From contig NZ_LXYR01000001.1 of NCBI RefSeq assembly GCF_001650195.1, positions 196,358 to 260,357 of the forward strand: a stretch of 64,000 bases of DNA, read 5' to 3'. Each line of letters begins with the position of its first letter. The stretch's first letter is position 1. Positions 3,988-18,617 of the stretch are shown here, piece after piece. Both the position numbers and the translations under genes were made by a program. This DNA is from Phormidesmis priestleyi BC1401. Lineage in GTDB: Bacteria; Cyanobacteriota; Cyanobacteriia; Leptolyngbyales; Leptolyngbyaceae. The notes beneath the pieces are model-generated. The model was not told where the DNA came from and searched no databases. It worked only from the letters and a program-made list of their open reading frames with translations.

Positions 3988-5118
3988 TTAATAGTCCACC
4001 CCGCGCTTGAGGTCGATGCCCTTTTCCGCATAGTGTTTGTGACAGATCATCTCAGAGTGAACGGTCGCCAGATCAAAATAGGCAAGCGGATTTTTACACC
4101 GTCCCGTAATAATAATTTCAGTGTCGCGAGGTTTGCGGAGCAATGCCTGCACGATCGGTTCTTCGGGCAGCAGCTCTAAATCTACTGTCGGATTGAGTTC
4201 ATCCAAAATAATCGTTTTATAAAGTCCTGACGCGATCGCGGCTCGTGCAATTTCCCAAGCGCGCTCTGCCTCGACATAATCGAGTTCTTGCTGTTGACCG
4301 CGCCAAACGATCGCATCGCGACCCGATCTCTGATGATCGACCAAACTGGGATAAATCTGACGCAGAGCCGCGATCGCCGCATCTTCGGTATAGCCCGCCC
4401 CGCCTTTGAGCCACTGCATAATCAGAACTCGATGCGATTTGTCTTGTCCGATGCCCTTTCCGATCGCTTGCAGAGCTTTGCCCAACGCGCTCGTCGATTT
4501 GCCTTTGCCAGACCCCGCATAGATTTCGATGCCAGCGATGCCCTGTTTTGCCATTGGGTGATAGAGCGGTCGCATTTCTGAATGCAGATCGGCAATGTCA
4601 ATCAAGCCTTGAGGCGCACCGCGACCCGTCGCAATAATCTCCATGTGGTCAGGCTTGCGCTTGAGAGTGCTCACCACTTCATCGATCGGCAACAGTCCCA
4701 AATCTAGTACAGGATTCAGTTCATCCATCACCACGACAGAATAGAGACCCGACGCGATCGCGCCTTTTGCCACATCCCATCCGCGCTGAGCTTCTTGGCG
4801 ATCGAACTTGGTAATCTCGTCTGCCCCAAAATGTTCGGCTCTGCCCGTGCGAACCTGATCGATCAAGTGAGGAAACCCGCGCTGAAGTGCCTGAATCGCC
4901 GCATCTTCGTCATAGGTGCGTCCGGGTCCTTTGAGAAACCGCAGCAGAAGCACACGGGTTTGAGAAAAGTTGTGAATGCCCAGACCGATCGATCGCAGCA
5001 CCACCCCCAGAGCCGCCTGAGATTTTCCTTTTCCAGCACCATCGTAGACGTGAATCTGCCCAATCATCCGCTCCGATCGCGCTTGAGCCGTCCGAATGCC
5101 AATGCCCGTTCTGGTCAT
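3988..5118 (-). CDS. Tandem CobO/BtuR-type P-loop ATPase (corrinoid adenosyltransferase-like)
   Basis: The 376-residue protein contains two copies of the CobA/CobO/BtuR fold. Walker A motifs are GAGKGKS (residues 27-33) and GSGKGKS (202-208). Each is followed by the family DELNP box (about 132-136 and 306-310), a TGR (164-166 and 338-340) and an LHSEM or VHSEM motif. Single-domain relatives of about 180-200 residues adenosylate cob(I)alamin or cobyrinate diamide; here the whole enzyme is duplicated and fused. Both halves keep the P-loop, so both may be active. The role could be corrinoid adenosylation or a diverged ATPase function; no other cobalamin genes are nearby. ATG start; an internal ATG at 5067 is possible. 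Confidence 0.85.
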   Translation of the reverse strand: MTRTGIGIRTAQARSERMIGQIHVYDGAGKGKSQAALGVVLRSIGLGIHNFSQTRVLLLRFLKGPGRTYDEDAAIQALQRGFPHLIDQVRTGRAEHFGADEITKFDRQEAQRGWDVAKGAIASGLYSVVVMDELNPVLDLGLLPIDEVVSTLKRKPDHMEIIATGRGAPQGLIDIADLHSEMRPLYHPMAKQGIAGIEIYAGSGKGKSTSALGKALQAIGKGIGQDKSHRVLIMQWLKGGAGYTEDAAIAALRQIYPSLVDHQRSGRDAIVWRGQQQELDYVEAERAWEIARAAIASGLYKTIILDELNPTVDLELLPEEPIVQALLRKPRDTEIIITGRCKNPLAYFDLATVHSEMICHKHYAEKGIDLKRGVDY

Positions 5119-8964: not shown

Positions 8965-9420
8965 TCAGGATGTTTTTAACGTTCGTTCCAAAATGCTTTT
9001 GGCAGGTTCTACGATCGCCCACTTGCCGTCGGGCTGTTTGCGAAGGGCAGCAAATTGTAGGGTGTCGCCACTGCCGATCGGGTCGCCTTGACGCAAGGTT
9101 CCTAGTTTAGGAGAATTTAACCCGCACAGCCGAAACTTATAGGCGGGAATTTCTGCCGTTGAGAAGAACACGCAGCCGCGCTGATCGATTTGCGCTTCTC
9201 CATCAAACGGGGCGTACGCAGAACTGCCTTTGAGCGCGATCGAGATGTCTCCTAATCCGCCCGTGACTCTATAACCCGCGATCGTGTCGCCAGGTTGCAG
9301 TTCCCATTTTTGAAAAAGCTGAATGTCGATCGGGGTTGGTTCTGACGTTTGAGACTGACATCCACCGAGCAGAAGGAGTATCAGCCCTGCGCTAGCGAAA
9401 CCAGAACTTATACCCTGCAT
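8965..9420 (-). CDS. Unrecognised lipoprotein, last gene of a coupled operon
   Basis: From ATG 9420 the 151-residue product opens with a textbook lipoprotein signal: MQGISSGFASAG, a Leu-rich core and the lipobox LLGGC (Cys about residue 20). The mature part is a small beta-rich domain (GDTIAGYRVTGGLGDISIAL, GEAQIDQRGCVFFST) of unknown family. I prefer ATG 9420 because GAGGG sits about 8 nt upstream; in-frame starts at 9435 and 9465 would spoil the signal peptide. The start lies inside the end of the previous gene (29-bp overlap), so translation is probably coupled. Confidence 0.7.
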   Translation of the reverse strand: MQGISSGFASAGLILLLLGGCQSQTSEPTPIDIQLFQKWELQPGDTIAGYRVTGGLGDISIALKGSSAYAPFDGEAQIDQRGCVFFSTAEIPAYKFRLCGLNSPKLGTLRQGDPIGSGDTLQFAALRKQPDGKWAIVEPAKSILERTLKTS

Positions 9421-9784
9421 ACTGATTACCCTCATAGAGAACCACAATCCACGTTTGCGTCTCAAACCCTAGAGTATAGACTTCTCGTTCAGCCATTGAC
9501 CCCGATCGCACCTGCAAATTCGGCAACTTACACGAAGGCTCACGCACAATTTCCCGGATTTTATCTTTCTGATCGCCTTCCGCGACGGTCAGCAGTTTTG
9601 CAACCTGCTGTTTAGACAGTTGCCCCTGAGAAGGTGGCGCTGATGGGCAGGGTTCGGCAACGGCTTTTGCACCCAAAGAAGGCAACCCTCTCAAATCAAC
9701 AAACAGTCCTAACGATAGCAAAATGGCTCCGCCTGCTAATAGCTGCTTGCGGTTAAAGCGTCTTGACAGGTTGAGATGCGTCAT
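9392..9784 (-). CDS. Unrecognised exported protein, middle gene of a coupled operon
   Basis: A 130-residue protein. Residues 1-45 have a basic N-terminus (RRFNRKQLLAGGAILL) and a hydrophobic core, a likely signal peptide or anchor ending near AKAVAEP. The mature part has three Cys and ends with the aromatic-rich YEGNQYAGYKFWFR. No family is recognised. The ATG overlaps the previous stop (ATGA, 4 bp) and has a strong ribosome site, GGAGGAAAAC, within the previous gene. Its own end overlaps the lipoprotein start. The three overlaps in a row point to a tightly coupled operon whose products may act together at the envelope. Confidence 0.7.
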   Translation of the reverse strand: MTHLNLSRRFNRKQLLAGGAILLSLGLFVDLRGLPSLGAKAVAEPCPSAPPSQGQLSKQQVAKLLTVAEGDQKDKIREIVREPSCKLPNLQVRSGSMAEREVYTLGFETQTWIVVLYEGNQYAGYKFWFR

Positions 9785-10731
9785 AGTTTTCCTCCGAGCA
9801 ATAGCCCTAGCGTAATCAGCAGCAGCCGATAGATGAAAACGGGACTCGACTTAGGCACACAAAACGCCAGATAGCCCGCTAACACAGCCGGAACAAACAG
9901 CAAGAGCGAAATCGGCAACCCCAGGAAAGGCAAATGTCCCACCAAAAACTTTAGCCCAAGGTGTAGCCCCGCGGCAGCAACCGTCCAGATTACGGCATCG
10001 ATCGCGATCGCTCCTCGCGTCTGCGGCAGTTGCAGTCGGGGCTGAAGTCGCCTCCAATAATAGCGAAGTGTGCGACGACGCGGAGCCACCGCCACTCTAG
10101 GACAGGGAGAGGTCGAAAATCTAGGGATGTCTGAAGGGCTAGGTTGCGCTACGGATGGAGGGTTTTGGCGATGAGCCGATGGAATTTTAGTCTCTTCAGA
10201 TAAAGACTCTGCCATAGCCTCCGGTTGAAATGGACGACGATCGAGCAAAAATGGCGGGATGTCGAGAACAGGAGATGGGACAGTCTGCTTCACCGTTGCC
10301 TCAGCCAGACACAGTGGATGAGCGGCGTGAGCGATCGTCCGCAGTTCTTGCATCTCTGACTGAATGCCGATCGACTGTTGATTAATCTGGTCTGCCTGAG
10401 TTTTTAACTGCCGTAACTCTTGCTCTAATCGCTGAAATCGCGCCACGATCGACGGCTGAGTTGGCTCCCAGGTTAGCTTGACTTGAGTCGACGCGATCGG
10501 TTTAGCTTGAACGGTGGTTTGTGGCTTAGTCTTAGCGGTGGCGGCTCGACGCTTGCGGGTGGGAGTAACTTCTTGCACAGCTTCGGGTGCAGCATCGGCA
10601 AGAGAACGATCGCTCTCGGCTCGATCAAGATCAACGGCGTGCTTTTTTGATTTAGAGGAGCGAGAGGGATGACCATCAAGCTCGATCTGATCAGGCTGAA
10701 TCAATTGGCTTTCTGATTTCAGTTCTCTCAT
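9781..10731 (-). CDS. Coiled-coil protein with C-terminal membrane helices, first gene of a coupled operon
   Basis: The 316-residue protein has three parts: a polar, low-complexity N-terminal region (1-95, rich in Lys, Ser, Ala and Thr); a heptad-like coiled coil at about 98-135 (RFQRLEQELRQLKTQADQI); and, after a Pro-rich linker, a C-terminal block from about residue 240 with three hydrophobic segments. No family is recognised. The ATG at 10731 has GGAG nine bases upstream. It is the first of three overlapping genes. A twin dyad at 10768-10803, some 40-70 bp upstream, probably controls it. Confidence 0.65.
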   Translation of the reverse strand: MRELKSESQLIQPDQIELDGHPSRSSKSKKHAVDLDRAESDRSLADAAPEAVQEVTPTRKRRAATAKTKPQTTVQAKPIASTQVKLTWEPTQPSIVARFQRLEQELRQLKTQADQINQQSIGIQSEMQELRTIAHAAHPLCLAEATVKQTVPSPVLDIPPFLLDRRPFQPEAMAESLSEETKIPSAHRQNPPSVAQPSPSDIPRFSTSPCPRVAVAPRRRTLRYYWRRLQPRLQLPQTRGAIAIDAVIWTVAAAGLHLGLKFLVGHLPFLGLPISLLLFVPAVLAGYLAFCVPKSSPVFIYRLLLITLGLLLGGKL

Positions 10732-10767
10732 GTTGGCTCCTTAGGCTAGCGGATTCAACGATTGATA

Positions 10768-10803
10768 TAGTATAATGGTACTATTTATAGTATCCACGTA
10801 CTA
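10768..10803. promoter_or_regulatory. Twin operator-like dyad
   Basis: Two copies of the inverted repeat TAGTA-N6-TACTA, at 10768-10783 and 10788-10803, are exactly 20 bp apart (two helical turns). Each sits in a direct repeat TATAGTAT (10766-10773 and 10786-10793). The site is 37-72 bp upstream of the coiled-coil gene and within the divergent spacer shared with the response regulator at 11031. Two in-phase dyads suggest a cooperatively binding dimeric regulator. The regulator is not known; the adjacent NarL-type protein is one candidate. Confidence 0.55.
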
Positions 10804-11030
10804 ACATATCACGTCAAGGACTGTAAACGATCGCAGAGTCTAAAAAGGCTTCACTTCATTCAATTTATTTTTAAGACAAGATGATCGCCCTGAGTAGAGT
10901 TAAAATAATTAGAAAAGTTTGATAGCTCACAAACGCTGTTTAAGCATAAATACTCATTAACTTCTCTTGGTTCTATCAATGCGAACTTGATCTACTCTAG
11001 TGATTAGGTTTGCAATCGACGGGTTTTCTA

Positions 11031-11687
11031 ATGCCACTGACCATCCTTGTTGCGGACGACGACCTGAGCACACGACTCTTGATAGGCGACTATCTTGAAG
11101 CTTCTGGCTATTCTATTCTTTCGGCTGAGAATGGCAAGGAGGCGCTTAGGATGGTCGAGGCATATCAGCCTCATCTGATCGTGACAGACATCACAATGCC
11201 CCAAATGGATGGCTATGAGTTGGTTAGACAGGTTCGACGGCGACCCTCTTTGCGTCTATTGCCCGTCGTCTTTCTCACCGGACGCACTGACCCCAGAGAG
11301 CGGGTTTTGGGCTATCAGCTTGGCTGCGATATTTATTTAGCAAAGCCGTTTGAGCTGTCAGAGCTAGGGGCAGTCGTTCGCAATCTGCTAGAACGATCGC
11401 AGATGATCGAGTCAGAATGGCGATCGCGGGTGCAGGCAGGCGAAGTCAATGAAGCCCCTGCTCAAGCATCGATCTACGCGCCGATGATCGTGATGGACTT
11501 TACAGGTCGTGAAAAAGAAGTGCTGTATTTTTTAAGCGAGGGGCTGTCTAACAACCAAATTGGACACAAGCTGCACCTAAGCCCGCGCACAGTCGAGAAA
11601 CACGTCAGCAGTTTGCTCAGAAAAACAGACACGAGCAATCGAGCCGAGTTAGTCCGGTTTACGATGGAGCATCATCTAGTGAATTAG
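11031..11687 (+). CDS. NarL/LuxR-type response regulator
   Basis: From ATG 11031 the product is 218 residues. The receiver domain (about 1-120) has the acidic pair at residues 10-11, the phospho-acceptor Asp53 in VTDITMP and the conserved Lys in LAKPFEL. The C-terminal LuxR-type helix-turn-helix (about 155-215) includes LTGREKEVL-like FTGREKEVLYFL, LSNNQIGHKL and SPRTVEKHVSSLLRK. It is a DNA-binding transcription regulator activated by phosphorylation; no histidine kinase gene is adjacent. The earlier in-frame TTG (11010) is less likely. It is divergent from the coupled operon at 9-10.7 kb and precedes an ABC exporter gene on the same strand by about 125 bp. Confidence 0.92.
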   Translation: MPLTILVADDDLSTRLLIGDYLEASGYSILSAENGKEALRMVEAYQPHLIVTDITMPQMDGYELVRQVRRRPSLRLLPVVFLTGRTDPRERVLGYQLGCDIYLAKPFELSELGAVVRNLLERSQMIESEWRSRVQAGEVNEAPAQASIYAPMIVMDFTGREKEVLYFLSEGLSNNQIGHKLHLSPRTVEKHVSSLLRKTDTSNRAELVRFTMEHHLVN

Positions 11688-17353: not shown

Positions 17354-17623
17354 CTACAGTTGACCAAGCAACACACTGTATTCTGCATGAGAACCAACCC
17401 AGAACCAAATCACTGTGCCATCATCTAACTGACCGACTGCTCGGTAGTCTCTGTTGATTCGTACAGAGTAAATTGGCAACTTGGGATGAACTTTCTTAAA
17501 TCGCAAGCTGGGATAATTGGGATCTTGCTTGAATTGCCGATACGCTTTGCGGGTCTGGTCTTGAACCTGCTCCGGTAAGGCAGCAACCATTTTACGAAAT
17601 TGAGCAGTGGTTCGAGATTTCAC
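17354..17623 (-). CDS. RelE/ParE-like toxin
   Basis: An 89-residue basic protein with the RelE/ParE-type layout: an N-terminal helix (TTAQFRKMVAALPEQVQDQTRKAYRQF), NPNYPSL-like DPNYPSLRFKKV, then the beta strands YSVRINRDYRAVGQLDDGTVIWFWVGSH. The conserved R..R..DYRA..  pattern is characteristic. RelE-like toxins cleave mRNA on ribosomes and ParE-like ones act on gyrase; sequence alone does not decide which. The GTG start overlaps the upstream antitoxin stop by 4 bp (GTGA), the usual antitoxin-first coupled layout. Confidence 0.82.
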   Translation of the reverse strand: MKSRTTAQFRKMVAALPEQVQDQTRKAYRQFKQDPNYPSLRFKKVHPKLPIYSVRINRDYRAVGQLDDGTVIWFWVGSHAEYSVLLGQL

Positions 17624-17838
17624 AATGTCTCTGGATCTAAGTCCTGAGTTTTGCCTGCACGATGCTCAGCCATTGCCTCGGCAGCAAGTTTAGCCAACAA
17701 ATCTGGGGAACGCGCAAAGGACTCGTCCCACTGCTGATCCTCTTCGAGTTCTTCCATGATCAGGGTGGCGATCGCATCTTGCTCTTTGGTCGGCAAAGTT
17801 TTTAGTCGGGCGATCGCTCGTTCAAGTAATTCGGTCAT
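17620..17838 (-). CDS. Antitoxin partner of the RelE-like toxin
   Basis: From ATG 17838 the product is 72 acidic residues (MTELLERAIARLKTLPTKEQDAIA, then IMEELEEDQQWDESFA), ending EHRAGKTQDLDPETL. The helical N-terminus and C-terminal GKTxxLDPE are common in small cyanobacterial antitoxins paired with RelE/ParE-like toxins. It immediately precedes and overlaps the toxin gene. The in-frame TTG five codons earlier is less likely. DNA binding and autoregulation are expected by family analogy only. Confidence 0.78.
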   Translation of the reverse strand: MTELLERAIARLKTLPTKEQDAIATLIMEELEEDQQWDESFARSPDLLAKLAAEAMAEHRAGKTQDLDPETL

Positions 17839-17952
17839 GACTACACCACTCAAGTAAGGTCAGCTTTCTTCATTATGCTTTTTGTCTCAGCCATTATGAT
17901 GCTCTACGATTCTGTACAGCATCTTTCTAGAAACAGCTTTCATAGAAATAGC

Positions 17953-18168
17953 TCAACTAAATGCTTCTCGCTCACTTGCAACTTCTAACCAACCTCCGAT
18001 CGCATCTTCAAGCATCTCTAATAAATGCTCATAACTCTCCCCCCAAGTGTGACATCCCGGAAGAGCAGAGACAGAGGCGCACCATACATCATCTTCTTGC
18101 CAAATAAGTACCTTGATTTTCATCAGGGTATCGCTTACGAGAAATTCAGTTACGTCGATCGCTCTCAT
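17953..18168 (-). CDS. Lone HicB-like protein (UPF0150 fold)
   Basis: 71 residues; the core from Met16 (ATG 18123) is a typical partial RNase-H-like HicB fold: MKIKVLIWQEDDVWCASVSALPGCHTWGES in pattern, then EHLLEMLEDAIGGWLEVA. HicB proteins neutralise the HicA mRNA interferase, but no HicA-like gene precedes or follows it here. It may be a solitary antitoxin, a remnant, or a regulator. It lies close to the RelE-like pair and next to a MITE, in a small accessory patch. Start uncertain between 18168 and 18123. Confidence 0.72.
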   Translation of the reverse strand: MRAIDVTEFLVSDTLMKIKVLIWQEDDVWCASVSALPGCHTWGESYEHLLEMLEDAIGGWLEVASEREAFS

Positions 18169-18617
18169 TCAATATTTTTACTTTGAGCAGGAGAACAGCA
18201 CGGGCATTTCAAAATCTACGTCCTCAAACCTGTCTAGTTGACTTTCGACCTGAGGCTATAGACGAGAGTTAGTACAGATGTACTATAAAGCGAACCACGC
18301 AGAAGAGACCCAATAGTAGGGCGAACGCATACATTTCTCAACACGCTATATCTAGCGAATCTAGACTTCGGTAACACTAAAGTGAAGGCAGACATTCTCA
18401 ACAAGCACTTGTTGATGAGAATATTCGTAATAAATTGCCTCATATCTCGCCTTATTGAGATATTAAGAAACGTATGCGTTCGCCCTACGTCCACAAGCCC
18501 CGAACTAAAAACAATTCAGAGTTTCACCTTATAATGGTTGTTCCCTAAGTTTCTCTGAGCTAACCACAAGACGAGCTTAGGCATCTAAGATCACAGCAGA
18601 GGGCTTCAGATAGGGTT
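18169..18617. other. Intergenic region before obgE holding a MITE
   Basis: 449 bp without a convincing gene. Most of it is the MITE-like element at 18316-18488. The rest is AT-rich leader DNA before obgE; a weak frame through the element on the minus strand is not coding in appearance. Confidence 0.6.
18316..18488. mobile_element. MITE-like element with about 25-bp terminal inverted repeats
   Basis: The 173-bp element begins GTAGGGCGAACGCATAC and ends in its exact reverse complement; the similarity continues inward (ATTTCTCAA versus GTTTCTTAA), about 25 bp in all. Inside is a second inverted repeat around TCTCAACAAG and TTGTTGATGAGA (about 18396-18422). There is no transposase frame. I see no clear target-site duplication. 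The layout fits a non-autonomous transposon (MITE). Confidence 0.75.

Follow-up and report, generated by a model that had tools for sequence, protein, structure and literature searches.

A conserved LexA-type candidate operator in front of a putative envelope operon in Phormidesmis priestleyi and related cyanobacteria

Introduction

The LytM factors EnvC and NlpD activate amidases. For Nostoc PCC 7120, the main text of PMC3091678 gives the box of cyanobacterial LexA as RGTACNNNDGTWCB and its footprinting consensus as AGTACWNWTGTACT. According to the same text, the SOS response cannot be initiated by a non-cleavable LexA, and a review passage gives the cleavage of Nostoc LexA as RecA-independent (PMC5101192). 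In Nostoc punctiforme the ParM-derived actin and ParR-like partner of the FcmBC system set the cell shape, as outlined in the text of PMC12645912. The accessible text of that paper contains 0 mentions of lexA, and a literature search (without supplements and with few subscription papers) turned up no cyanobacterial link between LexA and either LytM factors or FcmB.

Here, a pair of short inverted repeats in the genome of Phormidesmis priestleyi BC1401 is compared with these systems. The pair is found in a window of 64,000 nucleotides, which is the whole stretch of DNA analysed, between an operon for a coiled-coil protein and a lipoprotein and a divergent gene for a NarL-type regulator. The original prediction described it as a cooperatively bound operator with the neighbouring regulator as its candidate binder. 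The best reading of the sequences presented below is a LexA-type operator through which the sensing of damage or stress would be coupled to the control of envelope and shape.

Results

Twin dyads in the divergent spacer

Both predicted TAGTA-N6-TACTA dyads are present exactly where they had been placed, with a start-to-start distance of 20 bp (Table 1). A TA precedes each dyad, by which TATAGTAT occurs twice. The two had been called identical, which holds for the 5-base arms but not for the 6 central bases. The exact pattern occurred 3 times in the window, where 100 dinucleotide shuffles predict 0.01, and at 10 places in the 5.55-Mb genome, where the reversed control pattern gave 0. The dyads are therefore not a product of composition, and the suspicion that they were too regular for chance was borne out. 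The better description of the motif is a pair of 6-base half-sites, TAGTAC-N4-GTACTA, of which the twin dyads are a degenerate pair; each site combines an intact half, GTACTA, with a half that departs at one base, TAGTAT.

Table 1. Coordinates of the operators, predicted promoter elements and genes in the window.
Feature	Position	Strand	Remarks
Gene C, lipoprotein	8965..9447	-	start codon uncertain; lipobox LLLGGC, then degenerate LytM/M23 fold (predicted)
Gene B, 130 aa	9392..9784	-	single N-terminal hydrophobic helix; invariant cysteines C46 and C85; C-terminal domain weakly BamE/BLIP-like
Gene A, 316 aa	9781..10731	-	N-terminal half of low complexity and rich in lysine/threonine; coiled coil probable (by eye)
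Probable ribosome-binding site of gene A, AAGGAG	10737..10742	-	from sequence
Operator 2 (promoter-distal), TAGTATAATGGTACTA	10768..10783	.	around the expected start of operon transcription; conserved in relatives
Alternative -10, TATAAA	10784-10789	-	inferred from sequence
Operator 1, TAGTATCCACGTACTA	10788..10803	.	over predicted -10 and promoter spacer; second site in some relatives
Predicted -10, GATACT	10789..10794	-	17-bp spacer; inside operator 1; inferred from sequence
Predicted -35, TTGACG	10812..10817	-	TTGAC here in 7 of the 24 loci listed (own and L121-L126)
Response regulator (Response_reg + GerE)	11010..11687	+	divergent; no consistent link to the operator
Third motif copy (exact), TAGTACAGATGTACTA	18270..18285	.	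precedes an Obg-like GTPase gene (named from translation) by 332 bp

The third copy is located in a gene-poor stretch (window 18270-18490) before the Obg-like gene. Beside it, an inverted repeat with AGGGCGAACGCATAC as one arm and, about 150 bp away, the complement as the other resembles, by eye, the remnant of a small mobile element. Small genes which from their translations resemble toxin-antitoxin pairs or remnants of these were noticed at 17354-18168, where a HicB-like protein (Pfam) is encoded at 17953-18168. At 3988-5118 of the window a single ORF contains two CobA/CobO/BtuR stretches, as in a fused or duplicated corrinoid adenosyltransferase.

Conservation of the motif upstream of the operon

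Protein A was searched against 39 genomes and matched in 25 of them, including that of P. priestleyi BC1401. Gene B was present in 21 and gene C in 15 of the 24 loci from relatives, some of which stop at contig edges. With at most two mismatches, TAGTAC-N4-GTACTA was found in 23 of these 24 loci, at 15-109 bp from the nearest downstream codon at which gene A could start; taking the nearest such codon biases the distances towards small values. When the windows were placed independently of the motif, it was recovered from 8 of the 25 upstream regions exactly, from 20 with at most one mismatch and from 24 with at most two. The corresponding means in 200 shuffles of the 25 regions were 0, 0 and 0.4 (maximum 0, 0 and 3), and 57 control windows gave 0, 0 and 1. 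Among 180 half-sites of the same composition the motif ranked best, the runner-up reaching 0, 5 and 7 regions, and alternative spacings of 0 to 10 yielded at most 2 regions at one mismatch or fewer and 9 at two or fewer. The locus L144 (the match in G036) had no site, and neither gene B nor gene C was found there; it is probably a spurious match to gene A and was retained in n = 25.

A second set was collected from 62 named GTDB loci found with protein B, 25 of which had gene A as recognised by a C-terminal regular expression. The motif was present in 24 of these 25, the exception starting at a contig edge, and within the search window in 21 of the other 37, among which some may have a gene A since it was called by a C-terminal pattern; neither count has a shuffle control. 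The sets obtained with protein A and protein B are not independent, since 12 of the 25 contigs, matched by their length, are common to both. The closest named relative found was Phormidesmis priestleyi ULC007 (locus L145).

Conservation in relatives, on which the original prediction had been staked, was thus found, and the element belongs to the coiled-coil/lipoprotein operon as had been proposed. The twin dyads are almost certainly a real, conserved operator. An element acting as RNA hairpins, or the chance product of AT-rich DNA, is extremely improbable: the dyads do lie near the expected transcript start and their arms could pair as short stems, but the half-sites are conserved as sequence with their N4 spacing, shuffled sequence fails to give the motif, and operator 1, being over the predicted promoter, would not be transcribed.

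The conservation pattern also bears on the divergent gene. A gene for a NarL-type regulator (at least 57% identity) adjoins the operon in only 8 of the 24 loci from relatives, and the operator therefore follows the operon and not the regulator. It is very improbable that the dyads bind this regulator, as originally suggested, and that it controls both itself and the operon; the divergent layout seen here and in some members of the clade would agree with such a role, but the motif remains where the regulator is absent and also fronts other, unrelated operons.

Placement on the predicted promoter

In the clade with twin sites, the motif overlaps a conserved predicted promoter with a TTGAC element and a -10 element. 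The distance from TTGAC to [G/A]ATACT is 18 bp in the P. priestleyi BC1401 locus and 19 bp in L121-L126 (counted by eye). Operator 1 lies over the predicted -10 and operator 2 over the region of the expected transcription start, a placement on the putative promoter that is the geometry of a repressor.

A second site with at most three mismatches was found in 19 of the 38 loci examined, compared with 6.0 in shuffles. The spacing was exactly 20 bp in 9 of these 19 two-site loci, and the remaining spacings were 8, 14, 14, 15, 18, 19, 21, 28, 30 and 31 bp. Cooperative binding in helical phase is accordingly plausible for the clade with the 20-bp spacing, but as a general rule the phasing was rejected, given that only 9 of the 38 loci have it and that single sites or other spacings are found elsewhere. 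In the genus Phormidesmis two imperfect sites may stand in for one perfect site.

Products of the A-B-C operon

The operon is located on the minus strand and begins at 10731, with gene B overlapping gene A and gene C overlapping gene B. No Pfam or NCBIfam family was detected at threshold for protein A. Towards the C-terminus, in windows starting at residue 240 or later, it has hydrophobic segments, and this is the region that relatives match most often. The model of protein B gave a weak structural match in which BamE tied with BLIP-like folds (best Z 7.2, rmsd 3.0, 71 aligned), and its best Foldseek E-value was likewise weak (0.014).

The model of protein C (pLDDT 86) displays a predicted LytM/M23 fold: LytM/M23 proteins were the top Foldseek matches (best E 5.8e-4) and VIA-align gave Z up to 10.4 against LytM/M23 structures. 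Peptidase_M23 was reported by Pfam in just 1 of 31 members (E 0.25). HxGxD is the zinc-ligand motif of M23. At its position, mapped by eye, protein C reads GGLGD or similar, with Gly66-Asp67 invariant in 31 sequences, and HLH is replaced by a variable xLx; the catalytic motif appears to have been lost. A membrane-anchored coiled coil together with a putatively non-catalytic LytM factor recalls the amidase activators EnvC and NlpD, and by this analogy the A-B-C operon may control septal or lateral wall cleavage.

Other genes preceded by the box

Exact copies of TAGTAC-N4-GTACTA numbered 38 in the 39 genomes, compared with 10 for the reversed control. Thirty of the 38 were inspected; 22 precede seven gene families and 8 precede other or no clear genes. 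The 22 were distributed among actin-like genes (n = 9), genes for a DUF2721-type membrane protein (n = 5), operon A (n = 2), a B-C paralogue (n = 2), dnaB (n = 2), recN (n = 1) and an exonuclease III-like gene (n = 1), where the families were named from translated starts, Pfam being applied to the own-genome copies only, and the actin site L105, which lies within an over-extended frame, was tallied as upstream. The exact sites outside the inspected thirty are 6 operon-A sites already tallied and 2 from P. priestleyi BC1401, one at an actin-like gene and one at 18270 of the window. Pfam families beside exact or one-mismatch sites in the latter genome were ALP_N (25.2 bits, cut-off 26.3), DUF2721, DnaB, SmpB and NurA. 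The genes gyrA, dnaX, smc and sbcD, named from translated starts, are also near sites in this genome and are not claimed as targets.

With two mismatches allowed, the P. priestleyi BC1401 genome contained 161 forward matches, i.e. fewer than the 364 of the reversed control, and single loose matches therefore mean little. They were rejected as regulon members, and membership was judged instead by recurrence across genera. At this threshold the box was found upstream of the actin-like gene, which is ParM-like and has the strongest copies, in 22 of 23 loci, 10 of them exact (shuffle mean 1.1, maximum 3). This set comprised L277-L299, with L300 omitted because its match ends early; six distant actin paralogues (L301-L306) were tallied apart and had the box in 1 of 6. 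The dnaB gene was preceded by it in 19 of 30 loci (shuffle mean 1.5, maximum 5), and recN, with moderate recurrence and varying distances, in 10 of 30 (shuffle mean 1.0, maximum 6). Upstream of recA no clear box was detected: 6 of 30 loci had one at two mismatches or fewer and 0 at one or fewer, scattered over 27-308 bp (shuffle mean 1.5, maximum 7), and none was found before the recA of P. priestleyi BC1401. Since recA is without a clear box, no canonical SOS regulon is evident from these counts. In a separate scan of 30 recA loci, the gene of L236 was not located by motif, and L085 contributed 228 bases only to the upstream counts.

Downstream of the actin-like gene and in the same direction, mutually similar small proteins are encoded in 15 of 19 loci; these 19 are part of the 23, with no such gene at the own locus L277 and another frame in L282, L286 and L287. 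We noticed that the small partner is ParR-like in most loci, as in fcmBC. A probable paralogue of gene B in P. priestleyi BC1401 (L057, 1501-2116) has a one-mismatch box 213 bp upstream, and B-C paralogue operons of other genomes also have the box. The pair smpB-ruvB was considered as a target and rejected, as in L037 the only frame of at least 80 aa listed after smpB encodes, by translation, an anti-sigma-factor antagonist-like protein and not RuvB; smpB is possibly a single-genome match.

LexA as the candidate binder

A LexA match at E of at most 0.001 was found in 37 of the 39 genomes and one over the TIGR00498 cut-off in 36. The genome of P. priestleyi BC1401 has two matches over this cut-off, with the main lexA on contig C13. 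Many sites of relatives, the perfect versions among them, fit the published LexA box, and the two sites of P. priestleyi BC1401 are each off by one base in one half-site. Upstream of lexA itself, the box was present at two mismatches or fewer in 21 of 30 regions (shuffle mean 1.7, maximum 5), and in all 21 its end lay 18-46 bp from the lexA match. This lexA box usually has one GTTC half-site rather than GTAC, and 7 of the 21 read TGGTAC-N4-GTTCTA. In P. priestleyi BC1401, TGATACAAATGTTCTA is located upstream of the main lexA and CAGTACACCTGTTCTT upstream of the second copy. Most of the lexA genes thus carry a variant of the box, as would be expected for autoregulation.

Four genomes with operon A and a single lexA match (G008, G011, G012 and G025) keep the box, so that the main LexA would suffice and a second LexA as the sole regulator is unnecessary. 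The NtcA consensus is GTA-N8-TAC, and NtcA was rejected as a binder on spacing. We regard the twin dyads as a probable operator of a LexA-type repressor, the main LexA being the likeliest one.

Another dimeric regulator is an unlikely binder. Such a protein would run an envelope and cell-shape regulon of the actin-like, A-B-C, DUF2721-type and dnaB genes, and three observations speak for it, namely the symmetric GTAC/GTAC box, which is unlike the usual GTAC/GTTC box of lexA, the recA genes without a clear box, and the strongest targets being envelope and shape genes instead of repair genes. However, both half-sites are permitted by the LexA consensus in the main text of PMC3091678, the lexA promoters of the clade share the architecture at a nearly fixed distance, and recN, dnaB and, in the P. 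priestleyi BC1401 genome, the NurA gene are among the boxed genes.

The scissile bond of the main LexA was Ala-Gly in 20 of 30 genomes and Ala-Thr in 10 (L005, L082, L083, L089, L093, L095, L097, L098, L099 and L100), and the second LexA of P. priestleyi BC1401 (L006) has Ala-Ser at this position. The catalytic Ser motif was matched in 31 and the Lys motif in 24 of the 31 sequences listed. The main LexA of P. priestleyi BC1401 is among those with Ala-Thr instead of Ala-Gly, which makes a classical RecA-triggered cleavage doubtful here. Together with the RecA-independent cleavage of Nostoc LexA given in the review passage (PMC5101192), this indicates that the trigger may not be RecA.

Discussion

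The regulation of the operon may be depicted as follows. LexA dimers would occupy the pair of imperfect sites side by side, at a distance of about two helical turns in the clade with the 20-bp spacing, and the bound LexA would block RNA polymerase. Inactivation of LexA by DNA damage or other stress would release it from the operators, and the derepressed operon would supply protein A as a membrane coiled coil, protein B as a small exported product and protein C, a LytM-type and probably non-catalytic lipoprotein that in turn would direct peptidoglycan hydrolysis or division. That an fcmBC-like actin operon is preceded by the same box hints at a regulon in which cell shape and envelope are adjusted along with genes for replication and repair.

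A wider reading is put forward tentatively, as possible rather than probable. In Leptolyngbyaceae-type filamentous cyanobacteria, LexA might have turned from a recA-centred SOS repressor into an envelope-and-shape repressor with the fcmBC-like actin operon, the A-B-C operon, the B-C paralogue, dnaB and a few repair genes as targets. This would amount to a cell-morphology checkpoint that has no SulA-type inhibitor at its core and is read by a LexA with a scissile bond altered in part of the clade. If true, a single repressor couples damage to the genome, or stress, to the shape of the cell and the remodelling of its wall in multicellular cyanobacteria, and a function may be hypothesised for a conserved envelope operon without a Pfam family at threshold. 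It would also provide a control logic for the FcmB-like actin family, whose mode of action is called unclear in the text of PMC12645912, and a testable answer to the role of LexA in cyanobacteria whose recA it seems not to control.

Compared with the LexA box of Nostoc PCC 7120 as presented in the main text of PMC3091678, the box described here is alike in its GTAC/GTWC half-sites, N4 spacing, dyad symmetry and presence before lexA. It differs in that twin sites 20 bp apart occur in one clade, in that an envelope operon and an actin operon are among the candidate targets, and in that recA is without a clear box in this clade. No such envelope targets are listed in Table 3 and the main-text passages of PMC3091678, and the terms 'dnaB', 'recN', 'cell wall' and 'M23' are absent from its main text.

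The boxed actin-like gene resembles FcmBC of PMC12645912 by description, being ALP_N-like just under the cut-off and followed by small genes, whereas fcmBC transcription is tied to the sigma factors SigJ and SigC in the text of that paper. Protein C resembles the non-catalytic LytM factors of the EnvC, NlpD and DipM type in being a lipoprotein, the usual metal-ligand motif appearing by eye not to be kept, and its predicted fold aligned with FtsEX-complex EnvC (Z 9.3, rmsd 2.0, 89 aligned), DipM (Z 9.3, rmsd 2.3, 95 aligned) and LytU (Z 10.4, rmsd 2.6, 97 aligned). It differs from these factors in that no LysM or coiled coil was seen in its short chain, the probable coiled coil of this system being located on protein A.
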